A DNA stretch of 64,000 bases from Candidatus Saccharimonadota bacterium. GTDB lineage: Bacteria; Patescibacteriota; Saccharimonadia; Saccharimonadales; Saccharimonadaceae. The translations under genes and the position numbers were made by a program. This document shows, in pieces, positions 17,430 through 35,074 of this stretch. Location: assembly GCA_028286285.1 (NCBI GenBank), contig JAQBRV010000004.1, positions 62,001-126,000 of the forward strand. Reading direction: 5' to 3'. Below the pieces are notes generated by a model that saw only the letters and a program-made list of their open reading frames with translations, had not been told where the DNA came from and did no database searches. Position 1 is the stretch's first letter. Each line of letters starts with the position of its first letter.

Positions 17430-17460
17430 ATAACCAGCGTGGTATAATGGATATATAGTG

Positions 17461-21430: not shown

Positions 21431-21506
21431 GCGGGTGTAGCTCAGTTGTTAGAGCGCTTCCTTGCCAAGGAAGAGGTCGAGAGTTAGAGTCTCTTCACCC
21501 GCACCA
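21431..21506 (+). tRNA. tRNA-Gly (GCC), integration site
   Basis: The acceptor stem GCGGGTG pairs with CACCCGC, the anticodon loop TTGCCAA gives GCC, and CCA is encoded. The D-loop is AGTTGTTA (U at 19) and the T-loop TTAGAGT (A at 56), replacing the near-universal G19-C56 pair by U19-A56. No terminator follows the CCA; instead the 3' end of a serine recombinase gene runs antisense through the tRNA, so this is the left attachment site of the adjacent element. Confidence 0.9.
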
Positions 21507-23149
21507 CGAACGAAATCATTGGCATCAACGAACCCTTTCCAGGGTTCGCTTAGTTTATAAGACACTTGTGACCCCTTACGGAAGTCTCCATTCGCTGCCG
21601 TAATCGTAAAGTTAGAGAAGAAAATACGCAGTAGTGTATCCATAGTCTGCATGTTGCGTATTTTACCCAGTATAACGGGGGTAGATTCAAAAAGTTTGAG
21701 GTATTCTTCAAAGGTTGGAATTGAGTTTTTTACGTTGTCACGTAGTCTCAGATTCTTTTGATAATCACTCCTTAACACCTCGATTTCCTTCGTGTACTTG
21801 TCGAGGTCGTAGTGAGCTTTAAGCTCAGGGTTATCCCTAATGAGAACTTTTGTCTGCTCGTAAGCCCTCTCCTTATTTGCTGCCACAGTCCTTAGTCTGC
21901 CTATGGCGCTATCGAACTCAGCCTTCTTCGCCTCAACGGTCTTTTCGGCTCGTTTAACGAAGTCTGCGTAATTACTATTTGTTACAAAGAGGTAATCAGC
22001 AAAGAACTTCTGTGCAGCGTTAATCACCAACTCAGCTCTTGCCGATCTACCTTCCAACTCGCACCCTTCAGTTTCGCATTTATAGTAGTAGCGAGCGTTT
22101 TTAAGATTCCCTTCAGCGTCCCTCTTATTGATAAGCATGGAGGTCAAAGTCTTCTGGCAATGACCGCAGTATACTCGTCCGTTGAGCAATTTCGCTCGAA
22201 TTGTGCCACCACGGGGTCTCTGGCGAGCTGATATTTTAGTAACACTAAGCGGGTCAATCTTATTAATCTTGAAGAACTCCTCTGCGGTTATCATAGGTGT
22301 AAAACCGTATGTTTCCATCAGGTCAACGTGATTCTTACCCCATGCATGGATTCCAGTACTGTGAGGGTCTCTCAGTAGCTTCGACACATCATCTTTACTC
22401 CAGACGTGAGGTACTGGTTCGGCTCCCTGGCGCTTCTGGACAGTATAACCCTGCTCATTTATCCATTCTCGTATATCTTTCTGGGATTTTCCAGCAAGTG
22501 CCATTTCAAACATATGCTTAACCTTAGTGAAGTTTACTGGGTCGGGTTGGAAGTATCTGTCTGAATCGACAGTATATCCGTGCTTGAATTTCCCGATAAA
22601 CTCAGCGCCCTCAATAGCACGAGCATTACCCCTATCCACAGACTCCGCCAAATGTTCCGAGTACTGCTTCGCCATGACGAATGTTATCCCGAGCAGCATC
22701 TTACCTGCGGGGGTGTTCTCAAAAGTAAAGGTGGGGAAGCGCAGGTCTTTTATCAAACCCCTATCTACGAGGTCGATGATTGCTCCTGCCTCTTTCATAT
22801 TTCGGGATAGCCTATCAGGATGCCAAGCAATAACACCGTCAATATGTCCCAATTCTATATCTCGTATCATTTCTTTGAACCGTTCACGGGTATCCGCTAT
22901 TTTGGCTGAATAGCTTTCTTGATATACCTTAAATACATTTAGAGGATTAGATTCATCGGCAGCGACGACCCTTTCCATGCAGTCTTTTATTTGGTCTTCT
23001 ATAGAGGAAGATTGTCTGTCTTCGCTGGTTGTTGACTTCCTCGCATATAACCCATACCTTACAGTATTTGTGTCGACCTCACTTGGTCGCCCAGGTTGAC
23101 CTGCAAGTAAGAAGTCGAGTAATTGCTTTCTGTCTTCGCCTTGTTCCAT
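21449..23149 (-). CDS. Large serine recombinase (site-specific integrase)
   Basis: The 566-residue product has an N-terminal resolvase domain with the catalytic serine in YARKST (Ser39) and arginines in HPDRLSR, a recombinase domain, a zinc-ribbon-like segment (CGHCQ, then CETEGC), a coiled coil near 380-470 and a C-terminal region. Its last 18 codons lie inside tRNA-Gly, so the present C-terminus (after DANDFVRGA) is antisense tRNA. The element's own tail probably survives at 29245-29358. A minus-strand TATAAT ends seven bases before the ATG. Confidence 0.93.
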   Translation of the reverse strand: MEQGEDRKQLLDFLLAGQPGRPSEVDTNTVRYGLYARKSTTSEDRQSSSIEDQIKDCMERVVAADESNPLNVFKVYQESYSAKIADTRERFKEMIRDIELGHIDGVIAWHPDRLSRNMKEAGAIIDLVDRGLIKDLRFPTFTFENTPAGKMLLGITFVMAKQYSEHLAESVDRGNARAIEGAEFIGKFKHGYTVDSDRYFQPDPVNFTKVKHMFEMALAGKSQKDIREWINEQGYTVQKRQGAEPVPHVWSKDDVSKLLRDPHSTGIHAWGKNHVDLMETYGFTPMITAEEFFKINKIDPLSVTKISARQRPRGGTIRAKLLNGRVYCGHCQKTLTSMLINKRDAEGNLKNARYYYKCETEGCELEGRSARAELVINAAQKFFADYLFVTNSNYADFVKRAEKTVEAKKAEFDSAIGRLRTVAANKERAYEQTKVLIRDNPELKAHYDLDKYTKEIEVLRSDYQKNLRLRDNVKNSIPTFEEYLKLFESTPVILGKIRNMQTMDTLLRIFFSNFTITAANGDFRKGSQVSYKLSEPWKGFVDANDFVRGAGEETLTLDLFLGKEAL

Positions 23150-23156
23150 TCATGAC

Positions 23157-23162
23157 ATTATA
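23157..23162 (-). promoter_or_regulatory. Leaderless -10 box of the recombinase
   Basis: TATAAT on the minus strand, seven bases before the recombinase ATG at 23149. Confidence 0.65.
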
Positions 23163-23193
23163 AGGCTTTTATAATAGTTAGAGCTACTTTAGG

Positions 23194-23325
23194 CTATAGA
23201 ATAATTCGCACACCATCCAGAATCAGATAGGGTTTTTCCTCGGATTCATCGACTAGCAAATAGGAATCCAAGATTTGTACAACCTCAGAAATATCGACTG
23301 TTTTGGTTTTATTGGAGTTCTCCAT
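23194..23325 (-). CDS. 43-residue small protein upstream of recombinase
   Basis: An ATG-started frame of 43 codons reads MENSNKTKTVDISEVVQILD and ends in PYLILDGVRIIL. The composition is protein-like (acidic, helical, strand-like C-terminus). It is codirectional with the recombinase, 44 bases upstream. The position would suit a recombination directionality factor or small regulator, but nothing in the sequence proves this. Confidence 0.45.
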   Translation of the reverse strand: MENSNKTKTVDISEVVQILDSYLLVDESEEKPYLILDGVRIIL

Positions 23326-23478
23326 ATGGAGTCTTTTGCAAGACTTCCATGGTGAGAATCTTTAATGGTAGCGTAAAAAATATCGTGTATCTTTTGTACT
23401 ACTTTCACTATCCATTATAGGCTTTTTTCAACATTTTGTAAATGTTTTTATGCTTATTATTCATAATAATTACCACTG

Positions 23479-23838
23479 TTAATCCACTGTAGATTCATAC
23501 CTAGGCATAAGTCTACTAATAACGATTGGCTCCCGTCTCAAAACTTCCTGTGAAACAGCTCCTCGTTCCTGCTGATCGGCGAGCCAACCGATGGCTTGCA
23601 TGTTGCCTTGGAGTGCCTTATGAACGGTCGCTAGTACGACTGCTTTGGCGTAAGTCATTGATTTACCCTCAGTCAATTCGGCAATACTGCTTTTGGCGAG
23701 CACACTGCTATCAGCTTCTTGGTCGAGTAGTTCCTGAACAATCGTGGACATATTTTTACTGCCAGGTTTGCGACCTGATGGATTGCCTGATTGTCCTGGT
23801 GGCCAGGGTGTTAAATTTGGATATTTTTGTGTTTTCAT
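23479..23838 (-). CDS. DUF5681-like protein (terminase-small-subunit-like N-terminus)
   Basis: The 119-residue protein begins MKTQKYPNLTPWPPGQSGNP followed by SGRKPGSKN, the motif of DUF5681 proteins found in phages and mobile elements. The remainder is helical (MTYAKAVVLATVHKALQGN). The family may bind DNA. TATAAT lies 12 bases upstream of the ATG. The mobile-element context supports a role in the element rather than the host. Confidence 0.7.
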   Translation of the reverse strand: MKTQKYPNLTPWPPGQSGNPSGRKPGSKNMSTIVQELLDQEADSSVLAKSSIAELTEGKSMTYAKAVVLATVHKALQGNMQAIGWLADQQERGAVSQEVLRREPIVISRLMPRYESTVD

Positions 23839-24001
23839 GTGTCTATTCCTATTATAGCTAATTGGTTATTTCTCATCTGTTAGTTGCATTGTCCTGTAAC
23901 GCATTCTAAGGCGATTTAAGAGGTTTTAACGCGCGAAATGAGTATAGGGTCATCTTTATGTTTTGCCTCTGTTACAGGTGGCGTTTTTGGCAATTATTTC
24001 G

Positions 24002-24007
24002 TATAAT
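24002..24007 (+). promoter_or_regulatory. -10 box of the structured RNA
   Basis: TATAAT, placed about seven bases before the first paired base of the RNA fold at 24014. Confidence 0.6.
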
Positions 24008-24011
24008 AGCA

Positions 24012-24151
24012 AGGCTTAGACAAAATAATTCACGCCAAATTAGCATTCTTGTGATTGCTACGGTTTATGCGATAAAAGCAGCCGTAGCAAAACCCAGAAG
24101 CGTAAGCCGAAGGGCGTGATGGTCTAAGCAACCCGCTACGGTTGCTTTTTT
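24012..24151 (+). ncRNA. Structured RNA with intrinsic terminator, attenuator-like
   Basis: Nested stems are visible: GCTTAGAC (24014-24021) with GTCTAAGC (24122-24129); TCACGCC (24030-24036) with GGCGTGA (24113-24119); TTGCTACGG (24055-24063) with CCGTAGCAA (24082-24090). It ends in a terminator AGCAACC/GGTTGCT (24127-24146) plus six T. CCGTAGC can alternatively pair with GCTACGG inside the terminator loop (24135-24141), and AGCAACC recurs at 24158-24164 just before the next gene, giving competing folds. It may be a cis attenuator of the gene at 24184 or an independent small RNA. No known class was recognised. Confidence 0.65.
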
Positions 24152-24183
24152 GTTTCTAGCAACCGTTCAGCAGAAAAGTTGCT

Positions 24184-24843
24184 ATGACAAATACGACATC
24201 TCACAATCCATGGCAAAACCTCAAGCCACTCTATGTCTTACCAGAAGACTTTGCTGTGATTGCGGGTCATCGAAATTATTCTAACTTACGACTTGATGCG
24301 TTACCGAGTCAGGTGATTGGTGGTCTCGATAAGGCGGAAGTTATCTTTCTACTGTTAAATCCTGGCTTTAGCGAGGGTGACATTACTGTTGACCTACAAA
24401 TCCCTCATTTTGTTGCAGCTAATCGCCTAAACCATATAGACCCATATGGTTCGCCATTCTACTACTTCAACGGTGGCTTAGAGCGAACGGGAGGCTATAA
24501 GTGGTGGAAAAGAGTACTTAATCCTTTAATGCAGGGCGGTGTGACAGAGGATATGTTAAGGGAAAAGATTATGACGATTGAGTTTTTTCCGTATCATTCG
24601 AAAGATTGGATGGATTTACCCCAAGTTCCTTCGCAGCAGGTGGCGTTTGACTTAGTGCGCGAGGCTATTAAAAGGAAGAAGACTTTGATTATTCGTAGCC
24701 CCCAAAGATGGCTAGAAGTAATACCCGAATTAGCCACATATCCTTATGTAACATTCAGGAGCAATCTAAACGTAACGGTGTCGCCCAAGAACGTAGGCGA
24801 AGTGAACTTCAACAACATAAAGAATCTTATAATGGGAGAATAG
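24184..24843 (+). CDS. Uracil-DNA-glycosylase-fold protein (distant)
   Basis: The 219-residue product has a motif VIFLLLNPGFSEGD (about 53-66), like the first active-site loop of the uracil-glycosylase superfamily, and a downstream IEFFPYHSKDW. These are typical of UDG-like proteins found in mobile and defence regions. Which base, if any, it excises cannot be told. It is the first gene after the structured RNA and is followed two bases later by the gene at 24846. Confidence 0.55.
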   Translation: MTNTTSHNPWQNLKPLYVLPEDFAVIAGHRNYSNLRLDALPSQVIGGLDKAEVIFLLLNPGFSEGDITVDLQIPHFVAANRLNHIDPYGSPFYYFNGGLERTGGYKWWKRVLNPLMQGGVTEDMLREKIMTIEFFPYHSKDWMDLPQVPSQQVAFDLVREAIKRKKTLIIRSPQRWLEVIPELATYPYVTFRSNLNVTVSPKNVGEVNFNNIKNLIMGE

Positions 24844-24845
24844 TC

Positions 24846-25223
24846 ATGAACGAAGAATACAAGCTCATACCACTCCAGAAAACGCAATCAATTCCAGTAA
24901 GTTGGAGGTTCACTCAGGAAGAATACGATAACATGGCCAAAGGTCATCGCTCTAACTGGTGTGTATTCTTGCGTGACGATGTTGTGCATGTTTGCCGAAT
25001 TGGAGGAGAAGAGTTTTATCGGTTTACGGTAAGTAAGACTGGCGATGGGGTCTATGCGACCGACGACCTAGAAGCATATATACCCGATGACTTCTATGAG
25101 TCTGCAAGGCAGCATGGATGGACAGACCAGGAAATCGAACGACACCAAGCAGAGTTGAGAGAGTCTGTGATTGAAGAGACTGTTGGATTACTTGCAAGTT
25201 ACTTCAATATCAATACGGCTTAA
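24846..25223 (+). CDS. Hypothetical protein in element unit 1
   Basis: The 125-residue protein is acidic and soluble, with a beta-rich first half (VHVCRIGGEEFYRFTVSKT) and a helical C-terminus. No family recognised. The ATG at 24846 follows a GGGAG site and starts two bases after the preceding stop, so it is cotranscribed with the UDG-like gene. Its end overlaps the convergent gene at 25220 by four bases. Confidence 0.65.
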   Translation: MNEEYKLIPLQKTQSIPVSWRFTQEEYDNMAKGHRSNWCVFLRDDVVHVCRIGGEEFYRFTVSKTGDGVYATDDLEAYIPDDFYESARQHGWTDQEIERHQAELRESVIEETVGLLASYFNINTA

Positions 25224-26092
25224 AAACCGTATTTTTCTTGTAGCTCAATGTATTTTTTATCGTGCGACTTATCAATGTCGCGGAATATTTTAAGTTCGAC
25301 GCCTTTTTTGAGCTTTTGAGTTCGATTAACGATTTGAAGGAATGCTACTAAGAACTTGTAGGCTGTTTGTGCAGCACGTACAGTTTCATAAATTGGCGCA
25401 TCTAATCTAATTTCGAGATAGGCTTTTGGCTCAATCCTGCTGTTATTCATATTACCTAATACAGTCGAGTGAGTATCGCCTGAAAGAATAGAATAAACGC
25501 CACGGTAATCAAATTGGGTCAGTGTTTTATAATCGGGATTCTTGGCTAAATTAGAATCATCTATTTTTTTCAAACGTGCGAGAAGTGATTTGTATGAATC
25601 AAGTCTGATAGTGGGATGTGACTCACTGAACTTTTCTAGCTCAGCTCTTCGTCTGGCGATAGTCCTGGTTATAGCTTCATCAGAAATAGTTCTTTTCCAA
25701 GTTTCAGCGTTTGGATAAGCCGCACGGAGTCTTTGAACATCTGTCCATGTGCCTAATTGCTGCTTGGATTCCGAAGCAAGTCTAATCTTTAAGTTGATAT
25801 TAGACACTTCTAGGTTGATAAAATCGTATTCTGCTAACGTCTCCCACATAGAGCGAATCAGTATGTTGCTTGCGTTGCCTTGGTTGGCTCTAGTTAACGC
25901 AAGAATAGCATCTGCTCTCTGATATAAAGCACTAAAAGTGTTATAGCGAATAACCGTCTTAGCTTTAACATAGTGCTTGTAGCTGGCTGACTCGAGCAAT
26001 TCCTTAGCAAATCCGAGTAAACTTTCGAGGTCTGAAATTACCTCGTCTCTTAGCTGATTAGTATCTCTTACATATTCTGTTTCACTTGTCAT
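25220..26092 (-). CDS. DUF5677 family protein
   Basis: The 290-residue all-helical product has the DUF5677 features RSMWETLAEYDFI and YSILSGDTHST, with conserved Arg, Glu and His. Family members are common in defence islands, but their activity is unestablished. The ATG at 26092 is preferred to the upstream frame because the promoter elements (minus-strand TATTAT/TATAAG at 26103-26111) lie within the longer version. It is divergent from the HEPN operon and shares an overlapping promoter with it. Confidence 0.75.
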   Translation of the reverse strand: MTSETEYVRDTNQLRDEVISDLESLLGFAKELLESASYKHYVKAKTVIRYNTFSALYQRADAILALTRANQGNASNILIRSMWETLAEYDFINLEVSNINLKIRLASESKQQLGTWTDVQRLRAAYPNAETWKRTISDEAITRTIARRRAELEKFSESHPTIRLDSYKSLLARLKKIDDSNLAKNPDYKTLTQFDYRGVYSILSGDTHSTVLGNMNNSRIEPKAYLEIRLDAPIYETVRAAQTAYKFLVAFLQIVNRTQKLKKGVELKIFRDIDKSHDKKYIELQEKYGF

Positions 26093-26104
26093 AGCTCTAA
26101 GCCT

Positions 26105-26110
26105 TATAAT
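26105..26110 (+). promoter_or_regulatory. -10 box of the HEPN operon, overlapping divergent promoter
   Basis: TATAAT on the plus strand ends six bases before the ATG of a 12-codon leader frame. The same bases contribute to the minus-strand box of the DUF5677 gene, so expression of the two units should be mutually linked. Confidence 0.6.
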
Positions 26111-26116
26111 AGCAGT

Positions 26117-26155
26117 ATGTTGTTGAGTCAAATAACCAGATGGAATAACGAATAA
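26117..26155 (+). CDS. 12-codon leader peptide coupled to the HEPN gene
   Basis: The frame encodes MLLSQITRWNNE and its TAA overlaps the next ATG (TAATG). Its ATG lies six bases after TATAAT, so it would be the leaderless first frame of the mRNA and would deliver ribosomes to the HEPN gene, which has no Shine-Dalgarno site. It is too short to be judged by composition. Confidence 0.5.
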   Translation: MLLSQITRWNNE

Positions 26156-27156
26156 TGAATAACTCGCGACGGCTTCCGAGCTATATAGTCCCTATGGAGG
26201 AAATTGTTCTCGATAAATTACGCGTTATTCCCGCCGAGCCGGTAATCGTAAATGATGATTGGCAAAGAAATCACAGGTCTGGCTCGATAATCATTGAAGA
26301 AGATGGCCATAATGGTCTGATTGATAATTGGGTATACTTCCATGCACTCCTGGCGGATAGCAGACTACCAGTTTATGCGCTCCATGCAAAGGGTGAAGAA
26401 GCGAGCAGTTTTCAGATTAACGAGTTCGATAATGAGGATAATGTAAATTTAGTTCCGAGAGTCATAAACTTCGACTCGGAAGATTTGTTACCAGCAGTGT
26501 ATTTGGACTACGAGGAGCCACCAGAAGTTTCTTACAAAAAGGCTTATGATGCCTATATAAAACAAGGTAACGTATACTTTTCAGCACTAAAAAACTACTT
26601 CGTCGCGCAAGACATTAACTTTAATAAACGACTACGTAACATAGACAACTCATATTGGCAGATAGTAATGCTGGTGTCGACCTTGGAAGCATTGCTACCT
26701 CCTCCTGTATTTTGCAAAGGTAAATGCGAGACATGCGGTAAGGGTCTATCCCATGTGTTGAATGACCCTGGTAAAGACTGGAACGAACTACTCTTTAACA
26801 AAATTACGGATAAAAAGATAAGAAAACAATATAGGGATGTCTTAGATGAAGCACGTTATAAGATTCGCAACGACACCGTACATAACGGCTTAGCACCTGG
26901 AAACACTTTTTGGAAGTCACCTTCTCTACCTGATGGCGTTACGGAGTATACAACCACGAAGTCTCTCGAAAAATATAAAACAGACAGATATTCTTTAGAA
27001 AGTTTTATCGACCAATTGAAACAAGTCTGTAGGTACTTACTATTAAATCAGTTCATCGTGTGCGACATATTTCCATCGCTGAAAGGGATAGAAGTGCATA
27101 GCTTTTCCGCAACATCAACCGAGTCGAATTTTACAATGAATATAGAGATTAATTAG
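26155..27156 (+). CDS. Apea-like HEPN domain protein
   Basis: The 333-residue protein has an N-terminal beta-rich region and a C-terminal helical domain containing WQIVMLVSTLEALLP (about 168-182), three cysteines (187, 191, 194) and the HEPN motif R-x4-H in KIRNDTVHNG (Arg238, His243). Apea-like HEPN proteins such as ApeA are RNases that arrest translation during phage infection. That role here is inferred. It heads a three-gene operon with gaps of only 11-12 bases. Confidence 0.7.
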   Translation: MNNSRRLPSYIVPMEEIVLDKLRVIPAEPVIVNDDWQRNHRSGSIIIEEDGHNGLIDNWVYFHALLADSRLPVYALHAKGEEASSFQINEFDNEDNVNLVPRVINFDSEDLLPAVYLDYEEPPEVSYKKAYDAYIKQGNVYFSALKNYFVAQDINFNKRLRNIDNSYWQIVMLVSTLEALLPPPVFCKGKCETCGKGLSHVLNDPGKDWNELLFNKITDKKIRKQYRDVLDEARYKIRNDTVHNGLAPGNTFWKSPSLPDGVTEYTTTKSLEKYKTDRYSLESFIDQLKQVCRYLLLNQFIVCDIFPSLKGIEVHSFSATSTESNFTMNIEIN

Positions 27157-27167
27157 GAGGAATTAAG

Positions 27168-28454
27168 ATGCCAACAGTTAACGGAAATATATATCCTGAC
27201 TTAAAAATACATCCATCAGCAAATGAGATATTTCGAATAGCGTTGCTGAGTGTCGATGAAGAGCATTTGTTTGAAATGATGAAAAAGCTGGATGTTCTAA
27301 AATACTACTTAAGTGACATAGGCGTGGGATTCGAAATTGAAGTGAATGTGGTCAATAGCGTAGCAACCGACTCTCGAAAAGAAGAGCTTGGCTATAAGGT
27401 TTTCGATGACCTTAATAATGAGAAGGAGGCGGTTCTTTCATATGCAACAACCAATAATATCGATTTGATTTATTCGGATGACGAGTCATTCATTCGTGAA
27501 TTGTACGCGGCGGGCAAGCCGTTTCAGTATGCCGATAGTTTGCTTCAACTCGAAAATGAGATTGATGCATTTGTAGCTGGAAAGAACGTAGCTTGGGATT
27601 TTAATCATCCTCTATGGAATGCGTCATGGTTTTCAAAATATATTGAGATTCAACCGTTAATGGGTAATCTAAGGGAACTCCACGACTCAACTCAAAGACT
27701 TAATTATACGCCACAGCAATCAACATACGTTAGAGCCTTGCAGCACAAAGCAATGCAGCTTAGGCACAGTGAAGAAATTATATTGTCGCTCATTCAGAAG
27801 AAGAATTATGCGGAACGTAATTACATGCGGACTGATTCATATGGCTATGAGAGCTATTATGACTATTCTTTTGAGATAGACTTTCAACTTACTAATTTTT
27901 ACATTCTGCTTTCAGGAACTTTCGATATTATTGGTAGATTGCTTACGAGCCTTTACGATATTAAGGGTAAAGATATTCGCCCGAACATAGAGCATGCAAA
28001 CTTCTTAAAAGTTTTGGAGTCTAAGAATAAAGATTTGTATGATTTTTATTCCGAAAAAGAAATGAATAACTGGATGGTATGGATTAAGCGAAAACGTAAC
28101 TATGTAGCCCATGAATCCGAAGCCAGTTACACTACAGTGTATAAGGCTAAAAAACAGAAGATTTCGGACGCCGATATTGAAAAGAAAGTTAACGCGATGC
28201 AGAAGTGGGACGGCATTCGCTTGCTAGCGGGCGAGCAGTATGTTGAATCTCAGAAAGAGTTTGCAAGACATATTGTTAGGATGCATGAAGATAATGAGGT
28301 TTATACAAAAGAGGCAATGCAGGTAAACTATTATGATTCAGCGGAAAAAGAAGATGCCACAATGCTCTTCCATCCTCTTGTTGATACGAAGGCTGACTAT
28401 GATAAATATGAATCTCTCATTGATAACACCGCGAGGATATTGCTAGGGAAATAG
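27168..28454 (+). CDS. Second HEPN-type protein of the defence operon
   Basis: The 428-residue product carries WIKRKRNYVAHES near residues 306-318, an R-x4-H motif (Arg310, His315) in the helical setting expected for HEPN ribonucleases. Residues 225-260 hold an aromatic-rich segment. The N-terminal 130 residues are a separate alpha/beta region of no recognised family. An AGGAGG site precedes the ATG by six bases. Two HEPN proteins in tandem suggest a heteromeric nuclease or toxin-antitoxin pair, not shown. Confidence 0.6.
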   Translation: MPTVNGNIYPDLKIHPSANEIFRIALLSVDEEHLFEMMKKLDVLKYYLSDIGVGFEIEVNVVNSVATDSRKEELGYKVFDDLNNEKEAVLSYATTNNIDLIYSDDESFIRELYAAGKPFQYADSLLQLENEIDAFVAGKNVAWDFNHPLWNASWFSKYIEIQPLMGNLRELHDSTQRLNYTPQQSTYVRALQHKAMQLRHSEEIILSLIQKKNYAERNYMRTDSYGYESYYDYSFEIDFQLTNFYILLSGTFDIIGRLLTSLYDIKGKDIRPNIEHANFLKVLESKNKDLYDFYSEKEMNNWMVWIKRKRNYVAHESEASYTTVYKAKKQKISDADIEKKVNAMQKWDGIRLLAGEQYVESQKEFARHIVRMHEDNEVYTKEAMQVNYYDSAEKEDATMLFHPLVDTKADYDKYESLIDNTARILLGK

Positions 28455-28466
28455 TCCACAAATCAT

Positions 28467-29255
28467 ATGAAGTCTACAATAAATTCACATTTGGTCTCAC
28501 AGGTTTTACTGCGTCGATTTGCAGTTAAAAACGATGAGGATAAATGGGTTACTATTCAACACGATAAAGACCAAGGCAGTGAATCGATTAAAGAGGTTGA
28601 ACATGTTGCTTGCAAGGAGGTGCCGCGTAAGTTAATTCAGCTACTAGAAGCAGAGTGGTCGGATGAAATTGAAAAACATGCAAATAAAGCAATCAATAGT
28701 TTGGCTCATCATAATTGGACAGAAGCGCATTTTGCTACCATTAAAGACCTAATAGCACTTCATCTTATTCGTTCACAAGCATTCCAAATGGTTGAAGACA
28801 ATAAAGATGACTTGATGAATAGAATTAAAGTAATCCGAGACGAAGCGATGGAAGAAAACCCTGAACTTAGCGATGTATTTAACTATCTATATGAGAAAGA
28901 AGCTAGAGACGCTACATTGGATGTATCTATCGGGGTCTTGGTTGAATACATAAGAAAAACTCGTGATTTTCTCACTAAGCCAGAAATCGGTCTTGATATT
29001 GGATTCGCTCCAGAAGGTAAGGAATTTATTATTGGCGAGGTGCCTGTCATCTCTATTTTTAAAGATGGTAAAATAGCACCAATAACCGACGCAAAGTATG
29101 TCGGTATGCCAATAACGCCAAAAATAATCGTCACCCTTAAAACGAAGCCGACTAGAGACAAGCCAGTAACGTTGACACCAACCGAAGTTGACCGTGTGAA
29201 CCAGCTTCAAATGAAACATACATATAAAGTATTCTTTTCGAAGCCTAGTAAATGA
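28467..29255 (+). CDS. DUF4238 family protein
   Basis: The 262-residue protein starts with the DUF4238 pattern SHLVSQVLLRRFAV and has the later EFIIGEVPVISIF motif. Family members are frequent in defence islands, with unknown biochemistry. It ends the HEPN operon. Its stop overlaps, on the other strand, the stop of the orphan recombinase tail. Confidence 0.72.
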   Translation: MKSTINSHLVSQVLLRRFAVKNDEDKWVTIQHDKDQGSESIKEVEHVACKEVPRKLIQLLEAEWSDEIEKHANKAINSLAHHNWTEAHFATIKDLIALHLIRSQAFQMVEDNKDDLMNRIKVIRDEAMEENPELSDVFNYLYEKEARDATLDVSIGVLVEYIRKTRDFLTKPEIGLDIGFAPEGKEFIIGEVPVISIFKDGKIAPITDAKYVGMPITPKIIVTLKTKPTRDKPVTLTPTEVDRVNQLQMKHTYKVFFSKPSK

Positions 29256-29358
29256 TTACTGTCGCGGACGGTTGGCTTAACGGGATTGATGGCACTGCGT
29301 TGTATACGTTATCGATGATGTACTCGAAAAGTTTAAGTAGATTCTGTTCGGTTGCACC
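29245..29358 (-). pseudogene. Orphan recombinase C-terminal tail 1 (right end of unit 1)
   Basis: On the minus strand 38 codons run from the GCACCA motif (Gly-Ala) through GATEQNLLKLFEYIID to VIIY and a stop. It has no start and is not joined to a recombinase body. It aligns with two other tails at 33056 and 33712. The tail is probably the element's original recombinase C-terminus, separated when the element integrated. Confidence 0.7.
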
Positions 29359-29371
29359 AATTAAATATGAG

Positions 29372-29803
29372 CTATCTAGCTCTTATTATTTTACAATTAG
29401 AACAGACACCTTGAATTTCCAACTGGTGCGACGTGTTTGTGTATCCATACTTTTGAGTAACTTTATTAATAAAACGTTCTATCTCACCATGTTCATGGAC
29501 TGAGATTAACTTTCCGCATTTGATGCAACTAATATGATGATGGTGTTCTATAAAAATATCAGATAGTTCGATTTTATACTTCCAACCAATCTGAATTTTA
29601 TGTACAATCCCGAGCCCGATAAATAACTCTATAACACGATAAATACTAGTACGATTAATTTTAGAGTTGATTCGACTTTCTAACTCTTGCATAGTCCGAG
29701 GTTCACTATTCAAAAGAGCAAGAAATACGGTTTTGCGAGCATTTGTAACGAAGACATTATTTTTTCGAAGAGTTTTTTCCAGTAATTCGATGCTATTATC
29801 CAT
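29372..29803 (-). CDS. Fur/Zur family metalloregulator
   Basis: Fur-family proteins repress promoters when bound to Fe, Zn or other metals. From the ATG at 29803 (143 residues) it shows a winged-helix domain (NRTSIYRVIELFIGLGIVHK), the metal motif HHHHISCIKCGK with a CxxC, and a second C-terminal CSNC, matching four-cysteine structural zinc sites. It is divergent from the SDR-COG0523 operon, and a palindrome abuts its start. The neighbours favour a Zur-like (zinc) sensor, by inference. Confidence 0.85.
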   Translation of the reverse strand: MDNSIELLEKTLRKNNVFVTNARKTVFLALLNSEPRTMQELESRINSKINRTSIYRVIELFIGLGIVHKIQIGWKYKIELSDIFIEHHHHISCIKCGKLISVHEHGEIERFINKVTQKYGYTNTSHQLEIQGVCSNCKIIRAR

Positions 29804-29830
29804 GTTGCAATATTGTATACAAATTGCAAC
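29804..29830. promoter_or_regulatory. Palindromic operator at the Fur/Zur-like gene
   Basis: GTTGCAAT and ATTGCAAC arms are separated by 11 bases that include the palindrome TTGTATACAA. A partial third copy (ATTTGCAA) follows at 29832-29839. The site ends exactly at the regulator ATG and covers its -10 region (TACAAT), which suits autorepression and control of the divergent operon. Confidence 0.65.
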
Positions 29831-29870
29831 AAATTTGCAATCTACATATTTCTCACTTACGATGATAGAT

Positions 29871-30746
29871 ATGAATAAAAAAGCACTTATAGTCATAACT
29901 GGAGTTAAGTTTAGCGAAGTAAAACGAGACTTTTCAGCAAGAGACTACATTACATATATTGAGCATGATAATAAAAAATATAAGATGAATGCGGCAGCAG
30001 GTGTGGTACGTCAACTAATTAATGACTATGAAATAATCTGTACCGGTTACAGTGAACTTGATGGTGATATTTTAGCTTCAGCTTTTGGATTAAGCAAAGA
30101 TAGATTCTTCACGACTAACCTACTGAATAAAGTAGAAACTGATGAATTCGTTGAAGCAGTAGCTGATTTGAAGACTGACCTAAACATTTCTGTACACCTA
30201 GTGCACTATGGTGGAGCATCAGATACAAAAACAAAACTACCTAACGACAGCTTACTCGCTCATACCTGGGACTTAAAAGCAGAAGCATTGCCGGCACTGA
30301 TTGAAAACAATTGTGTAACTCTTATTAATATCCTTCAGTCTATGAAGAAGCATGAGATATTTGAAGGACAGTCTATATCAAAAGTATTGTTCATCTCTGC
30401 AGCTGCTGCGGTGCGAGCTAAGCAAATGCTCGGACTTGATGTTGCTCAGAAAGGTGCGGGTCATGGTTTAATTCGAACTATTGCTCTTGACCTGACACCT
30501 GAGAATATTTTCGTAACAGAAATTATGCCTGGTAGTACTGACACTGGTTTCTTTGACAATGACTACTCACTGGATACAGCTGTGGAAGTAACAAAACGAC
30601 TAGGTTATGAAAACACTCGCGACACTTACCCAGTATTCACAGCAGAGCAAATAGGTGATGCAGCTAAGTACACACTTGATGCCAATTGTAACGTCAGAGA
30701 GCTTGTCCTATTGCCGTATGGCCAGTTCCCTCATCTAGGGGCTTAA
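29871..30746 (+). CDS. Short-chain dehydrogenase-like protein, atypical active site
   Basis: The 291-residue product shows the C-terminal SDR pattern KGAGHGLIRTIALDL and EIMPGSTDTGFF, but the N-terminal dinucleotide Gly-rich loop is poorly conserved. The position of the catalytic Tyr, four residues before the conserved Lys, is Asp (LDVAQK). It may be a non-catalytic or altered-function SDR. The ATG at 29871 is chosen because the upstream frame crosses the operator. It is followed four bases later by the COG0523 gene. Confidence 0.65.
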   Translation: MNKKALIVITGVKFSEVKRDFSARDYITYIEHDNKKYKMNAAAGVVRQLINDYEIICTGYSELDGDILASAFGLSKDRFFTTNLLNKVETDEFVEAVADLKTDLNISVHLVHYGGASDTKTKLPNDSLLAHTWDLKAEALPALIENNCVTLINILQSMKKHEIFEGQSISKVLFISAAAAVRAKQMLGLDVAQKGAGHGLIRTIALDLTPENIFVTEIMPGSTDTGFFDNDYSLDTAVEVTKRLGYENTRDTYPVFTAEQIGDAAKYTLDANCNVRELVLLPYGQFPHLGA

Positions 30747-30750
30747 TCTT

Positions 30751-32337
30751 ATGAGTCGGGAGAATTTTGAAGTCATATCTCTGCTTGGGCCACTTGGTTC
30801 AGGCAAAACGACGACACTTAACAATCTGATTGAAAAGGTGCCTTTAGCTGATAGCTATGCTGTCGTTGTGAATGATGTTGGAGAAAATAATGTCGATGCG
30901 CAGCGTATATGGGACCATCCCGCGAATCGGAGCGAGAAGATTATCCCTCTCACGGCAGGTTGTATTGGTTGTAGTGATGTCACACAGTTTAGGGAAGCAT
31001 TAGAAAAAGTACACGACGCAGGCGTCAATGTATTATTTATCGAACCGACTGGGATTGCTCCTGGTAATGAAATTGTGGATGTAGTCGAGTCGAGTGGGTT
31101 TAATCTTTCGGTTCTGACCCTTGCTAACGCACGTACAATTGAGCGTGATATGAAGTGGCAAGTACTGCCGAGTCAATTGGCTGTTGCAAATATTGTAGGG
31201 ATTACTCATATACCTGAAGGCAGCGACAATGCTGAAGTAATGGACACCGTGCTTGACCAACTGCCTCCACTTGCTGACGATGTCACTGTTGAACTAATTA
31301 AGCCTGGGGATACAAACTATTTTGAGATTCTCGCAAATTTGCGCGGTATGGATAAGCAGCTCAGGCTAGGCCGTCAAACACTACATGTTGTATCTGACCA
31401 TGACCATCATCACGACGATGATTGTAGCGGACACAATATTAGTGCTAAATCTTATCGCCTGCGTCCTGATGCATCGCTTGAGGCTGTAAAACAGTTACTT
31501 ATGCCTTACACTCAGAGTGACATTCCACTCTTACGCGCCAAGGGGGTGATTGGGGGTATGCGTTTCGACGTTGTAGGTGATGAATGGAAAATCCAACCTG
31601 ATGAAAGTAGCTTGCAAAGTATGAATGTCATATTCGCTGACCATATGCCAGCCACATTTCTTGATGCTGTACATGATTTATCTGAAACTCAGGAACGTGT
31701 ACTCATATCGGGAGATAAAAAGTCAGTCGTTAAATCAGTCAGTGATTTGCCCGTAAAAGAACGATTGGAGATTGTTAATGAACGAGTGAGGCAATACCCT
31801 CATCCAATTAGTCCTATGCATGGTGAAATCATCCCAGACTGTGAAGCGGATGAAGGATATGAAATAGCCTTCTGGGGCAACAAAGATGATATGCCCGATG
31901 ATGCGAAGCATCTAACCATGTCTGCATATATTTCATTTAGACTTGAAGGTCTCCACGAATTACAGCATCACAGCGAAAAGATAGCCAACTTTGACGCTAA
32001 GGCAGCCTACTGGGTAAGGAGATTTGGTGCGACGCTCGGCTACAATAGTTATTACTTAAGTGACTATATTCCTGAAGACAGCCTAAGTAGGATACGGGAC
32101 GTAAATCCTGCACGAATGCTTTGTAATGGCTTGATGGCATTAGATAAATTTACATTCGACGAAGGCCGAGCAGAAGAAAAGCCTGAATTTGTTGCAAGTG
32201 TTATGCGAGCTGCATACGAGAATGATGACGTAACAATGAAAGAACTTGAAACACTAAAGGTATATATGCTGAAAATTTCAAAGGATAATGAAGACTTTGA
32301 ATCACGATGGAAAACTACTTTCTCATTCGTTGACTAA
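30751..32337 (+). CDS. COG0523 (CobW/ZNG-like) metal-chaperone GTPase
   Basis: COG0523 GTPases deliver metals, often zinc, under starvation and are commonly Zur-regulated. The 528-residue protein has Walker A GPLGSGKTTT, a CIGC motif in TAGCIGCSD (the usual motif is CxCC), the EPTG switch region, a His/Asp-rich metal loop DHDHHHDDDCSGH and a CobW C-terminal domain. It has a C-terminal extension of over 150 residues not usual for the family (family length about 320-400). Its position beside a Fur/Zur-like gene agrees with a zinc role. Confidence 0.82.
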   Translation: MSRENFEVISLLGPLGSGKTTTLNNLIEKVPLADSYAVVVNDVGENNVDAQRIWDHPANRSEKIIPLTAGCIGCSDVTQFREALEKVHDAGVNVLFIEPTGIAPGNEIVDVVESSGFNLSVLTLANARTIERDMKWQVLPSQLAVANIVGITHIPEGSDNAEVMDTVLDQLPPLADDVTVELIKPGDTNYFEILANLRGMDKQLRLGRQTLHVVSDHDHHHDDDCSGHNISAKSYRLRPDASLEAVKQLLMPYTQSDIPLLRAKGVIGGMRFDVVGDEWKIQPDESSLQSMNVIFADHMPATFLDAVHDLSETQERVLISGDKKSVVKSVSDLPVKERLEIVNERVRQYPHPISPMHGEIIPDCEADEGYEIAFWGNKDDMPDDAKHLTMSAYISFRLEGLHELQHHSEKIANFDAKAAYWVRRFGATLGYNSYYLSDYIPEDSLSRIRDVNPARMLCNGLMALDKFTFDEGRAEEKPEFVASVMRAAYENDDVTMKELETLKVYMLKISKDNEDFESRWKTTFSFVD

Positions 32338-32366
32338 TGTATTTGCTATTATAGAATGATACTTCT

Positions 32367-33059
32367 ATGGTGAATAAAAACGTAAATATAAATTTAGTAG
32401 TTCAAAGTACTGCGACGATAAGCGATACTTGTATGTCTGTGTTTTTCGAACATCCGCCAGGTTTCGTGTATGAACCTGGAGATTGGATAGACTTAAATTT
32501 CAACGATGGCAATCCTAGAGGTGGCATTACCTACTCACTTTCATCATCGCCGACAGAAGACAATTTGTCTGTTACATTCAAACTCGGAATAAGTCCATTT
32601 AAGAAACGTCTGCAGTCGCTTGAACCAAATGACACCATGTTTATAAGCCAGTATGGTAATGATTATGGATTTCACTTAAAGGAAAACCGTTCAAGTGTTC
32701 TTATCGCAGGAGGAATTGGCATAGCACCATTTAGAAGCATGATAAAAGAGATGTACGATACAGATAATAAGAATGACGTGCAGCTTATATATCTAAATAA
32801 GGACACGGCTTTTGTTTTTGCCGACGAGCTCAGCTTATGGGAAAAACAACTTCCTAATATAAATGTGAAATATATTATTACAGAACAACTTAGCCGCAAA
32901 AAACGTGAGAAGCTACTTATTCCAATGATAGATAAAAATGCGCATCACTATTTTATTGCTGGTCCTGAGGCAATGGTAGAATCTACCGAACACTTATTAA
33001 TTGATGATATGGGAATTAGTGTAAAAGACATACGTATTGATAGCTTCGGTGGTTATTAA
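32367..33059 (+). CDS. Ferredoxin reductase-type FAD/NAD(P)-binding protein
   Basis: The 230-residue product has the flavin-binding RxYS-like GITYSLSSSP, the nucleotide-binding IAGGIGIAPFRSM and the C-terminal YFIAGPEAMVEST. The terminal FGGY replaces the usual aromatic tail. It would transfer electrons between NAD(P)H and an unknown partner. It ends the metal-cassette operon, and its stop overlaps the stop of orphan tail 2 on the other strand. Confidence 0.82.
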   Translation: MVNKNVNINLVVQSTATISDTCMSVFFEHPPGFVYEPGDWIDLNFNDGNPRGGITYSLSSSPTEDNLSVTFKLGISPFKKRLQSLEPNDTMFISQYGNDYGFHLKENRSSVLIAGGIGIAPFRSMIKEMYDTDNKNDVQLIYLNKDTAFVFADELSLWEKQLPNINVKYIITEQLSRKKREKLLIPMIDKNAHHYFIAGPEAMVESTEHLLIDDMGISVKDIRIDSFGGY

Positions 33060-33208
33060 TAGATAATCGTAACTTTTCTTTCTAACACCTTTTTATTAAG
33101 CTCTTTAGAAACAGATGTAGTCAGGGTTTGTAAATTATCGTTTTGTAGTTCGAGAGGGTTCTCGTATATATAATCTAAAAGTTTGAGGAGTGTCTGTTCA
33201 GGCGCACC
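33056..33208 (-). pseudogene. Orphan recombinase C-terminal tail 2 (right end of unit 2)
   Basis: Fifty-one minus-strand codons begin at the GCACCA motif with GAPEQTLLKLLDYIYEN and end in KVTIIY and a stop. It aligns with tails 1 and 3 mainly at amino-acid level (LLKL, IIY-stop), with different third bases, so it was once under coding selection in a different recombinase. Confidence 0.7.
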
Positions 33209-33225
33209 AATTTTAGCAATTTGTC

Positions 33226-33249
33226 AAATACGCTTTCGGGCGTATTTTT
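33226..33249 (+). terminator. Terminator after att motif 2
   Basis: AAATACGC pairs with GCGTATTT, followed by T. It sits 17 bases after GCACCA, the spacing expected for a tRNA terminator. Confidence 0.75.
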
Positions 33250-33263
33250 GCTATTATTATCCT

Positions 33264-33701
33264 ATGATAAATACCAATAAGCCCGTTCAAGATTTTCTCG
33301 CAACATTAGACGAGGATACGTTAAAAGATAGCGAAATTCTTTTCGAGATAATGCAACGAATAAGCAATGCTGAGCCTAAAATATGGAATGAACATACTAT
33401 AGGTTTTAGTTCATATCATTATAAGTATGACAGTGGTCGCGAGGGAGATAGCCAAATACTTAGTTTTTATCCTAGGAAGGCTAAAATCACCATTTACCTA
33501 ATGGATGGGACAGCGCGCTACGCTACATTATTAGATAAGCTAGGTAGTCATACAACCACTGGATACTGTGTTGTGGTCAAAGGCCTTGGTGATATAGAAC
33601 TATCTGTTCTTGAAGAGATTTTGCAGCAGTCTTACGACTATATAAAGTCAATATCTCAAACAGGATCTGTAGACAGAATTTTATGGAAGACTGAAAAGTA
33701 A
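33264..33701 (+). CDS. DUF1801 (YdhG-like) protein, cargo of unit 3
   Basis: The 145-residue product has the DUF1801 pattern (VQDFLATLDEDTLKDSEILF, then PKIWNEHTIGFSSYHYKY and a C-terminal helix). The fold is related to iron-chaperone frataxin-like YdhG, but function is unknown. The ATG at 33264 lies six bases after TATTAT. Two other DUF1801 genes occur at 33943 and 52444. Confidence 0.78.
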   Translation: MINTNKPVQDFLATLDEDTLKDSEILFEIMQRISNAEPKIWNEHTIGFSSYHYKYDSGREGDSQILSFYPRKAKITIYLMDGTARYATLLDKLGSHTTTGYCVVVKGLGDIELSVLEEILQQSYDYIKSISQTGSVDRILWKTEK

Positions 33702-33711
33702 TTACTTACCG

Positions 33712-33825
33712 TTAATAGATAATCCTTTCCCTAATTTCGCTATTTATTGGGATAGATGGTGAGCCTGAAAGTTGCCCATCTACGAGCACCCCAAAGAGTT
33801 TAAGTAAATTCTGTAGCTCCGCACC
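33712..33825 (-). pseudogene. Orphan recombinase C-terminal tail 3 (right end of unit 3)
   Basis: Thirty-eight minus-strand codons from GCACCA: GAELQNLLKLFGVLVDG to ERIIY and a stop. It is the same length as tail 1, again with IIY-stop. Confidence 0.7.
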
Positions 33826-33843
33826 ACTGTTATCATGCAAGAT

Positions 33844-33867
33844 AAAACACCTTTCCGGGTGTTTTTG
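33844..33867 (+). terminator. Terminator after att motif 3, probable native tRNA-Gly terminator
   Basis: AACACC pairs with GGTGTT and five T follow in all. It begins about 20 bases after the last GCACCA, so it may be the original terminator of tRNA-Gly, pushed 12 kb away by the insertions. Confidence 0.65.
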
Positions 33868-33942
33868 TTATTATTGGTTACAGAGCTACGTACGATCAAT
33901 AGCTGGATACATACCAGTAGCCGTAAGCAGGATAGAAATTTT

Positions 33943-34284
33943 ATGAATGAAGAAGTAACGCAGTATATACAAAAAACACAGGCATGGCAGATAGAAGTGT
34001 GCAATACATTGCGTGATCTCGTATTAACGAATGTGCCTAATGTAGAAGAACGGTTGCAATACGGCAAGCCACACTATCTAAAGGATGGAAGTTATCTGGC
34101 GGTAATCCATGTAAGCAAAGACAAGGTGTCATTCATGTTGTTTAATGCAACCAAAATTCCCGAAGTAAAAGGCTTCTTACGCTCAATGGGTAACGGCGAT
34201 CGTAAAACAGTTGATATTCGTGATGGGCAATCAGTTGACTACGAACAGCTCGCTAATCTAGTGCGTAAAGTCAGCCAGGTATAA
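33943..34284 (+). CDS. DUF1801 family protein
   Basis: The 113-residue protein has the core VPNVEERLQYGKPHYLKDG and FMLFNATKIPEVKGFL of DUF1801 proteins. The ATG at 33943 starts the conserved domain. The upstream in-frame extension reads through the tRNA-like terminator and is rejected. Function unknown. Confidence 0.75.
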   Translation: MNEEVTQYIQKTQAWQIEVCNTLRDLVLTNVPNVEERLQYGKPHYLKDGSYLAVIHVSKDKVSFMLFNATKIPEVKGFLRSMGNGDRKTVDIRDGQSVDYEQLANLVRKVSQV

Positions 34285-34497
34285 AAAACAAAGCTTCAGC
34301 CACATTAGAACCCCTCATTGGTGAATCGGAATACATAATGTATAGCCGCTAAGTCTTTTCAGTTTATATATTTTTTTATATTAGAAGAATTAATAGTTAG
34401 AAATACGTCTACTACGCAACACCATCCTAATTGTGTTTGATTAATAATAATGCTAACTTATTTAAAGAAGCTTATTAATTAAGAAAGGGTGTTTGAA

Positions 34498-34878
34498 ATG
34501 TCTAAATATGTTGATGGTTTTGTGTTGGTCGTGCCAAAAGGGAAAGAAGTAGAATACCAAAAGATGGCAGAAATGGGACGGGATTCATGGATGAAGCACG
34601 GTGCGCTTCAATACTTTGAATGTAGAGGTGATGACCTAAAGCAGCAAGAAATGGGTGATGAAAAGTCACGTGCTTATTCCGAAATGACAGGCGCAACAAG
34701 TGACGATAATGTGTGGTTCTCATTTATTGTTTTCAATTCTAGGGAGCACCGCGACGAGGTAAATAAAAAGGTAATGGATGAGATGAGTGAAGCTTATCAA
34801 GAACAAACTGACTTTATAATGCCGACTGACATGACGAAAATGGCATATGGTGGGTTTGAGGTAGCAGTCGAAGGTTAA
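34498..34878 (+). CDS. DUF1428 family protein
   Basis: The 126-residue product matches DUF1428 (YVDGFVLVVPKGKEVEYQKM, GALQYFECRGDD and MAYGGFEVAVEG at the end), a ferredoxin-like-fold family of unknown role. An AGAAAGGG site precedes the ATG at 34498 by a few bases. A GTG nine bases upstream is a less likely start. Confidence 0.85.
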   Translation: MSKYVDGFVLVVPKGKEVEYQKMAEMGRDSWMKHGALQYFECRGDDLKQQEMGDEKSRAYSEMTGATSDDNVWFSFIVFNSREHRDEVNKKVMDEMSEAYQEQTDFIMPTDMTKMAYGGFEVAVEG

Positions 34879-35032
34879 AGGGCTTAGTCGGCCGAAGTTA
34901 CAGTGTAGATCGTAGGACTTACTTATTATTTAAAATACTCTCTGTATGGGATAGCCAGGAGTTTCCTCCATAAAGCCAGTTCTTCCCTGATCTCGTGTAA
35001 AACTAATGTGTAGTATTGCACCATTGAAATAG

Positions 35033-35056
35033 TCTCGGTTCATCCGAGGCTTTTTC
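35033..35056 (+). terminator. Intrinsic terminator
   Basis: GTCTCGG pairs with CCGAGGC around TTCAT, followed by five T. It lies nine bases after another GCACCA (35019-35024) but without a recombinase-like tail. Confidence 0.75.
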
Positions 35057-35074
35057 AATGCTATGATGGAAGCA

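Follow-up and report, generated by a model that had tools for sequence, protein, structure and literature searches.

Integrons carry a tyrosine recombinase, IntI, at the head of an array of single-gene cassettes, with attI as the primary site and an attC site at one end of each cassette. The genomes of Saccharibacteria are about a megabase or less in size, and the gain of genes in these organisms is poorly understood. Here, we describe a locus in a 64,000-nucleotide stretch of DNA from a Candidatus Saccharimonadota bacterium (the window; assembly GCA_028286285.1, contig JAQBRV010000004.1, positions 62,001 to 126,000), in which the gene for a large serine recombinase (LSR) runs into a tRNA-Gly(GCC) gene and is followed by units that end in short antisense coding stretches, hereafter called tails (T1, T2 and T3). 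The genome that holds the window is 774 kb in size (G000, window on contig C2). On the comparisons presented below, the locus is probably a chromosomal cassette array that lies at the 3' end of tRNA-Gly and is operated by an LSR with the attachment site in its own gene.

The LSRs of the staphylococcal cassette chromosome (SCC), including SCCmec, insert at the 3' end of orfX/rlmH, where tandem composite arrays and units devoid of a recombinase are known (PMC6243372). In the SSV-type archaeal tyrosine integrases, termed suicidal, the attachment site lies in the integrase gene and integration alters the integrase, a possible built-in control of directionality (PMC8371274). In mycobacteriophage BPs, the attachment site lies in the repressor gene, and integration changes the C terminus of the product and its activity, the lost part carrying an ssrA-like degradation tag (PMC4557955). 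Both the suicidal integrases and BPs immunity show that integration can work as a switch where the attachment site is part of a gene.

The window LSR was assigned on the basis of Pfam matches (PF00239, 1e-18; PF07508, 6e-12), with a Zn ribbon under the cut-off. The catalytic residue S39 and residues R37, R113 and R116 were invariant across 24 LSR sequences, and sequence-profile matches were obtained to PDB entries 9dxd, 9dxh and 4kis, which are phage large serine integrases (SPbeta YokA, A118). The last 18 codons of the reading frame lie inside the antisense strand of tRNA-Gly(GCC) and encode GAGEETLTLDLFLGKEAL. In an AlphaFold2 model (overall pTM 0.37), most of the body of the protein has pLDDT values of 70–90, a coiled coil is predicted, and the tRNA-coded residues 549–566 are disordered.

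Each of the three window tails starts at GCACCA. A tail protein profile and a 36-bp site DNA profile, both built without window sequences, were run against the window. In the six-frame translation of the 64 kb, the protein profile matched T1, T2 and T3 only (E values of 5.6e-17, 7.5e-16 and 6e-8; next match 0.65), and the DNA profile returned the same three places.

Recurrence of this arrangement was assessed in 151 related genomes (LSR homologues), in 394 genomes of the family (site pattern) and in a 259-genome sample of the whole phylum. Nine LSR homologues with 42–71% identity over nearly the full length were found among the related genomes. The most divergent of these, L010, sits at tRNA-Pro and the other eight sit at tRNA-Gly(GCC). 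A truncated LSR (L011) was likewise located at tRNA-Gly, and this target is used by at least 10 further LSRs homologous to that of the window. At all ten Gly-type loci first examined (the window, L031–L038 and L040), the LSR lies at tRNA-Gly in the same codon phase with a Gly-Ala entry, and at the nine outside the window (9/9) an antisense tail of the form GA..Q.LLKLF...[IV]IY-stop was observed 5–12 kb further on. The integrated LSR frame stops just past the crossover (GAG-stop) at three of nine fetched tRNA-Gly loci. Over all fetched loci 41 sites were found; 32 of these are on stretches that include tRNA-Gly(GCC), and every one of the 32 is downstream of this gene and on its strand, with the tails antisense. 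The site pattern was matched in 25 of the family genomes and a reversed-pattern control in none.

The behavior of the tails is that of coding sequence. Among 35 distinct tails the frame is kept and the [IV]IY end is shared, followed by TAA in 14 cases, TAG in 11 and TGA in 10. The in-frame ratio of nonsynonymous to synonymous differences (pN/pS; simple counts on short tails, made without a model of base composition or transition bias) was 0.47 for codons 1–11 and 0.41 for the last seven, with values of 0.78–1.67 in shifted frames; constraint was weaker in the middle codons 12–19 (0.71 in frame vs 0.95 and 1.34 shifted). Two pairs of tails found only on cassettes gave pS values of 0.50/0.55 and pN values of 0.20/0.25 (pN/pS of about 0.4 and 0.46), and such constraint on the tails of recombinase-free units is as expected if tails from time to time rejoin an LSR. 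Distances between LSR bodies covary with those between tails in 12 elements (Mantel r = 0.52, p = 0.0055). One locus (L037) retains a short relic from the 3' end of an older LSR gene, KVTYKLKEPWDGFLKANELVL, which reads on in frame into a newer tail, GATEQNLLKLF.... Analogous far-end tails, each reading from its own tRNA core, accompany LSRs at tRNA-Pro (L042, L049) and tRNA-Gln (L047), with a GRR...EPIL...FLL-like form, and a second type was found at tRNA-Pro (L044 and L046; ...EP...YAY/YVY). Pairwise E values among the tRNA-Pro and tRNA-Gln tails were 1e-10 to 1e-13, and single examples were observed for LSRs at tRNA-Ile and tRNA-Leu. In the phylum sample, the LSR gene was found to end within an antisense tRNA at 25 of the 30 best loci, with about a dozen amino-acid types represented.

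Since the tails are constrained as coding sequence, vary together with the LSR body and recur across genomes, the attachment site lies inside the LSR gene, and the proposal that integration swaps the LSR C terminus for antisense-tRNA codons is strongly supported and very likely correct. In a free circle, the LSR would end in a conserved tail of about 37–50 residues (GA..Q.LLKLF...IIY), and the first ~33 bp of the tail coding sequence, beside GCACCA, would constitute the element half-site. Recombination with the tRNA 3' end would exchange the tail for antisense-tRNA codons and leave the tail codons at the far end.

Much of this had been anticipated in a first-pass annotation made from the letters of the window. 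Its statements that the resident recombinase ends in antisense tRNA-Gly, and that three antisense tails start at GCACCA, share an LLKLF-like block and end in IIY-stop, agree with the 18 LSR codons in the antisense tRNA and with the translations and window-free profiles, respectively. The tails had also been called diverged coding sequences, which the in-frame pN/pS of about 0.4 and the three stop codons after one IIY end bear out. A crossover at the CCA end that exchanges the integrase C terminus, so that the original tail is left behind at the far end, is upheld by nine-plus recurring loci, the L037 relic, LSR-tail covariation, coding constraint and the tails at tRNA-Pro, tRNA-Gln, tRNA-Ile and tRNA-Leu. 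The hairpin reported after each GCACCA is present with a T run at all three places, the one after T1 being weak (z −1.9).

The C-terminal swap could nevertheless be neutral, the gene and the site simply sharing some sequence at the 3' end and the tail being dispensable, a view that is compatible with a cassette array. The integrated C terminus comprises anything from 3 to about 64 tRNA-derived residues, the corresponding residues of the window LSR are predicted to be disordered and the recombinase body is intact at most loci, all of which would suit such a view. However, coding constraint on the tail runs well past the ~33-bp site, the IIY end is retained before three different stops, and the tails covary with the LSR body, so that neutrality appears unlikely, if far from negligible. 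An LSR with its tail is expected in the circle alone and would be the form kept by selection; for this reason it is plausible, although tentative, that the tailed enzyme is integration-competent and that loss of the tail on integration lowers further recombination.

The boundaries of an LSR element could be placed by comparison of two loci, L119 (TM7 HOT-352) and L169 (G261), which have in common an element of 2648 bp with 98% identity over its full length. The 300-bp stretches at its ends are 99.7 and 97% identical, and the 300 bp outside on each side are unrelated (46%). Because identity holds to both ends and the flanks are unrelated, both boundaries are fixed, and by this alignment the element is one that spans from just past the tRNA CCA to the tail GCACCA.

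Not every unit carries a recombinase. Window unit 3 was 82.3% identical over its whole 617 bp to unit 3 of an array with three tails in a genome from another family (G210; L165:8017–8632), with no match outside the unit and with the LSR absent from the unit in both. Unit 2 of the G210 array (592 bp, DUF1801) was 76% identical over 571 bp to the first unit behind tRNA-Gly in G084, a genome with no LSR between tRNA-Gly and the tail of that unit. In G035, G032, G023, G036 and other genomes, the genes carried by small units directly behind tRNA-Gly are of DUF1801, glyoxalase-like, OmdA-like or methyltransferase type; the left ends of small units are mostly terminator hairpins, not LSR remnants. 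At L173 and L175–L178, tailed cassettes were found without an LSR of the window family between tRNA and tail. These observations support, with good confidence, the assignment of recombinase-free units as gene cassettes consisting of terminator, gene and tail behind tRNA-Gly.

Any stretch bounded by a tail on its far side and by the tRNA or a preceding tail on its near side would then be a unit able to leave or enter at the same core. Single-gene units made up of terminator, promoter, gene and tail would be integron-cassette-like, tRNA-Gly taking the part of attI and the tail that of attC. Recombination by the LSR between the junction of tRNA with X and that of tail with Y would excise or insert the intervening DNA, and the newest units would lie nearest the tRNA. 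Because the right half-sites differ between units, most of the specificity would be held by the left half-site (tRNA or tail). More likely than not, the LSR would move the recombinase-free cassettes in trans.

A different history was considered, in which whole LSR elements were inserted successively at tRNA-Gly and the older ones later deleted their recombinase, leaving the tails as scars. The first-pass annotation had described the window in this way, as stacked events of which only the newest unit kept its recombinase. Stacking does occur, given the newer tail fused in frame to an older LSR 3' remnant at L037 and the element of a second LSR family that stands behind a tail at L181. By contrast, loss of the recombinase from units 2 and 3 is not needed: since a distant genome of another family has unit 3 in the same 617-bp form, again with no recombinase, a second single-gene unit behaves likewise and single-gene tailed units without a family LSR are found elsewhere, this part of the account has been revised. 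Deletions would also have had to begin at the core every time, and the left ends are terminators and not LSR remnants. Simple stacking fits poorly because a terminator follows every tail, where the 3' end of an older recombinase would be expected (seen only at L037). Successive insertion is thus held to be rather improbable as the general origin of the units.

It was also considered whether the tails might be true LSR scars and the small units spread by natural transformation and homologous recombination at repeated sites, with no involvement of the recombinase. Such an origin would account for 36-bp sites that are alike across genomes and for the cassette genomes (L173, L175–L178) that have no family LSR between tRNA and tail. 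However, near-identical sequence of ~33 bp is short for homologous recombination, the tails diverge strongly past it, and both ends of the L119/L169 element coincide with the core, no homologous flanking DNA having travelled with it; this explanation is considered improbable to a marked degree. Finally, an open frame is seen in about 25% of 37-codon stretches drawn at random from these loci, but an origin of the tails as chance open reading frames (ORFs), or as repeats that have nothing to do with the recombinase, is excluded for practical purposes by protein and DNA profiles built without the window (E down to 5.6e-17), by the constant place of the tails behind tRNA-Gly, by the in-frame relic at L037 and by LSR-tail covariation.

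Several points weigh against a cassette array run by the LSR. The weakest is the variation of the right half-sites between units, which is unusual for serine integrase sites. No excision factor was identified, only two recombinase-free units with the same boundaries in different genomes were found, the arrays are short (1–3 clear tails), and the simplicity of the pN/pS counts described above belongs here as well. Two checks put forward in the first-pass annotation gave negative results. A clean empty site, with tRNA-Gly leading straight to the terminator, was not found in the comparison of G409 with G261 or among the relatives of G444; the identity between G261 and G409 is about 96% as far as the tRNA end and is lost right there, but G409 is not a clean empty site because 6 kb of other genes follow its tRNA. 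Likewise, no circle and no intact full-length recombinase ending in LLKLF...IIY were found in genomes, phage and plasmid records or viral contigs, and L037 holds only a short decayed LSR-tail relic. Profile matches in G013 and G153 cover both halves of a tailed LSR; these candidates were rejected as decayed or not an LSR. A phage or plasmid origin was rejected in the same searches: no record holds a close relative, and the viral contigs contained only three distant LSRs (22–24% identity) and no relative with the LSR C-terminal part plus tail.

The features of the window array are collected in Table 1. Beyond the three boundaries first noticed, a fourth, eroded one was found in the form of GCACCA, then a hairpin, then a gene. 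The hairpin and the fused phosphatase-glyoxalase gene that follow this boundary suggest that the array once extended to about 36 kb. In G023, the cassette that comes first after tRNA-Gly carries the glyoxalase part as a separate gene, so the window ORF may be a fusion of two cassettes. A homologue (53%) of the unit 2 ferredoxin-NADP reductase is directly behind an eroded site in G057 (L086). The DUF1428 gene is present in only 14 of the 151 relatives and in most carriers lies 1.2–14 kb downstream of tRNA-Gly; the unit 2 CobW gene, considered as a cassette marker, has relatives in only two other genomes and was too rare to be informative. The cargo of unit 1 at 24184–29255 (DUF5677, HEPN-like, DUF4238 and unknown proteins) has the look of candidate defence genes, and PADLOC models gave no match or convincing defence call on it.

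Table 1. Features of the tRNA-Gly array (window coordinates)
Feature	Position	Strand	Description	Basis
tRNA-Gly(GCC)	21431..21506	+	Target site (attB/attI-like); CCA end is the putative crossover region	ARAGORN
LSR	21449..23149	-	566 aa; Resolvase and Recombinase domains	ORF, Pfam, AlphaFold2 model
Unit 1	21507..29359		LSR and cargo (DUF5681, unknown, DUF5677, unknown, HEPN-like, DUF4238); ends in T1	tRNA end to site; Pfam
Tail T1	29245..29358	-	Putative free-form C-terminal codons of LSR, GATEQNLLKLF...VIIY-stop; full translation GATEQNLLKLFEYIIDNVYNAVPSIPLSQPSATVIIY, then stop	
Site motif 1	29324..29359	+	36-bp recombination-site motif, TCGAAAAGTTTAAGTAGATTCTGTTCGGTTGCACCA	nhmmer, E 1.5e-11
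Hairpin after T1	29369-29382		Hairpin and T run, weak	fold z -1.9
Unit 2	29360..33209		Recombinase-free; Fur-family regulator, SDR-like, CobW/ZigA-like GTPase, ferredoxin-NADP reductase-like; ends in T2	
Tail T2	33056..33208	-	GAPEQTLLKLL...TIIY-stop; full translation GAPEQTLLKLLDYIYENPLELQNDNLQTLTTSVSKELNKKVLERKVTIIY, then stop	
Site motif 2	33174..33209	+	36-bp recombination-site motif	nhmmer, E 8e-9
Unit 3	33210..33826		617-bp single-gene cassette: terminator, DUF1801 gene (33264-33701), T3	Pfam, comparison
Hairpin after T2	33226..33247	+	Terminator-like; left end of unit 3	fold z -4.7
Tail T3	33712..33825	-	GAELQNLLKLF...RIIY-stop; full translation GAELQNLLKLFGVLVDGQLSGSPSIPINSEIRERIIY, then stop	
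Site motif 3	33791..33826	+	36-bp recombination-site motif	nhmmer, E 4e-11
Hairpin after T3	33844..33865	+	Terminator-like	fold z -1.6
Unit 4 (probable, older)	33827..35023		DUF1801 (33943-34284), DUF1428 (34498-34878); eroded boundary GCACCA (35018-35023) at end	
Unit 5 (probable, older)	35024..36007		Hairpin (35031-35051); fused low-molecular-weight phosphatase and glyoxalase-like ORF (35063-36007)	

Observations on the choice of target were made at other loci. Within one LSR subfamily, tRNA-Gly(CCC) and tRNA-Pro(TGG) also serve as targets, a switching between tRNA genes (L166 in G153, ~943–2490; L172 in G283, 991–2658). At L170 (G264, 16994–18640), an intact LSR has its 3' end at GGTGCACC; as no tRNA was detected near this end, its place is probably a secondary integration site with only a short core in common. 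The second LSR family stands directly behind the tRNA-Gly CCA or a tail GCACCA at L084, L160, L162, L174 and L181, with the left end AATATTTGAATTATGAGCCGAAAGGCTC and a first ~312 bp that is 77–98% identical among its genomes. At L082 (G064, tRNA 1425–1500), the T-arm region of the tRNA is present again in short, inverted form, GTTCTAACTCTCGGCCTCTTC, about 40–60 bp behind tRNA-Gly, and similar copies were seen at L063 and L067; L082 additionally has part of the tRNA 3' end repeated in direct orientation, then another hairpin.

If the array works as proposed, a tRNA-anchored serine-recombinase cassette array would be an integron-like gene store for Saccharibacteria, and the LSR a rare site-specific recombinase that edits its own C terminus (the last ~40 codons) at each action, making serine-integrase directionality directly testable. 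An LSR frame ending in antisense tRNA, together with a matching far-end tail, provides a simple rule by which mobile elements of Patescibacteria can be located and their limits set, and the 'GGLDSNQ'-type C-terminal peptides of these recombinases would be explained as antisense tRNA joined on by integration. More speculatively still than the proposed role of the tail, Patescibacteria might possess a gene-capture system of their own, in which tRNA-targeting serine recombinases have C-terminal codons that serve also as the cassette site, each cassette would bring along a spare tail for the recombinase, and the tail captured in each recombination event sets the activity or direction of the enzyme. 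In open-licence full text, no report of LSR-swapped C termini or cassette arrays in Patescibacteria was found.

Among described systems, SCC is the closest working analogue, having a serine recombinase, a single conserved gene 3' end, composite arrays and units without a recombinase. The LSR is not itself a Ccr protein by profile (CcrB 51 bits, cut-off 900; CcrA 35, cut-off 700; CcrC 30, cut-off 900), and membership of XisF was rejected in the same comparison. In contrast to SCC, the target here is the 3' end of tRNA-Gly and not rlmH/orfX, the LSR gene overlaps the attachment site and has its C terminus swapped, and the units go down to ~0.6 kb with one gene, each ending in recombinase C-terminal codons. 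We know of no alteration of SCC recombinases by integration, nor, to our knowledge, are the phage large serine integrases (SPbeta YokA, A118) altered by their own. The phage enzymes belong to the same protein family by profile, and the LSR tail family had no named counterpart in the searches made.

The likeness to integrons lies in recombinase-free single-gene cassettes whose exact boundaries are common to genomes (unit 3 and G210 unit 3; G210 unit 2 and G084 unit 1). The enzyme here is, however, a serine recombinase and not the tyrosine recombinase IntI, the primary site is a tRNA gene, the cassettes have their own terminator, and the attC-like site is open coding sequence of the recombinase's own C terminus. 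In BPs the altered protein is the repressor, whereas here it is the recombinase. With the possibility in view that the LSR tail is an ssrA-like tag, a transfer-messenger RNA was located at G000:C1:13950–14350 (L235; Rfam, 97.8 bits); it was not called by ARAGORN, and hence no tag peptide was called. As in the suicidal integrases, the LSR gene contains the attachment site, reading into the tRNA at the core with the tail at the far end and a relic at L037; here, by contrast, the enzyme is a serine recombinase of which only the tail is replaced, the catalytic body remaining whole in the window and at most loci.

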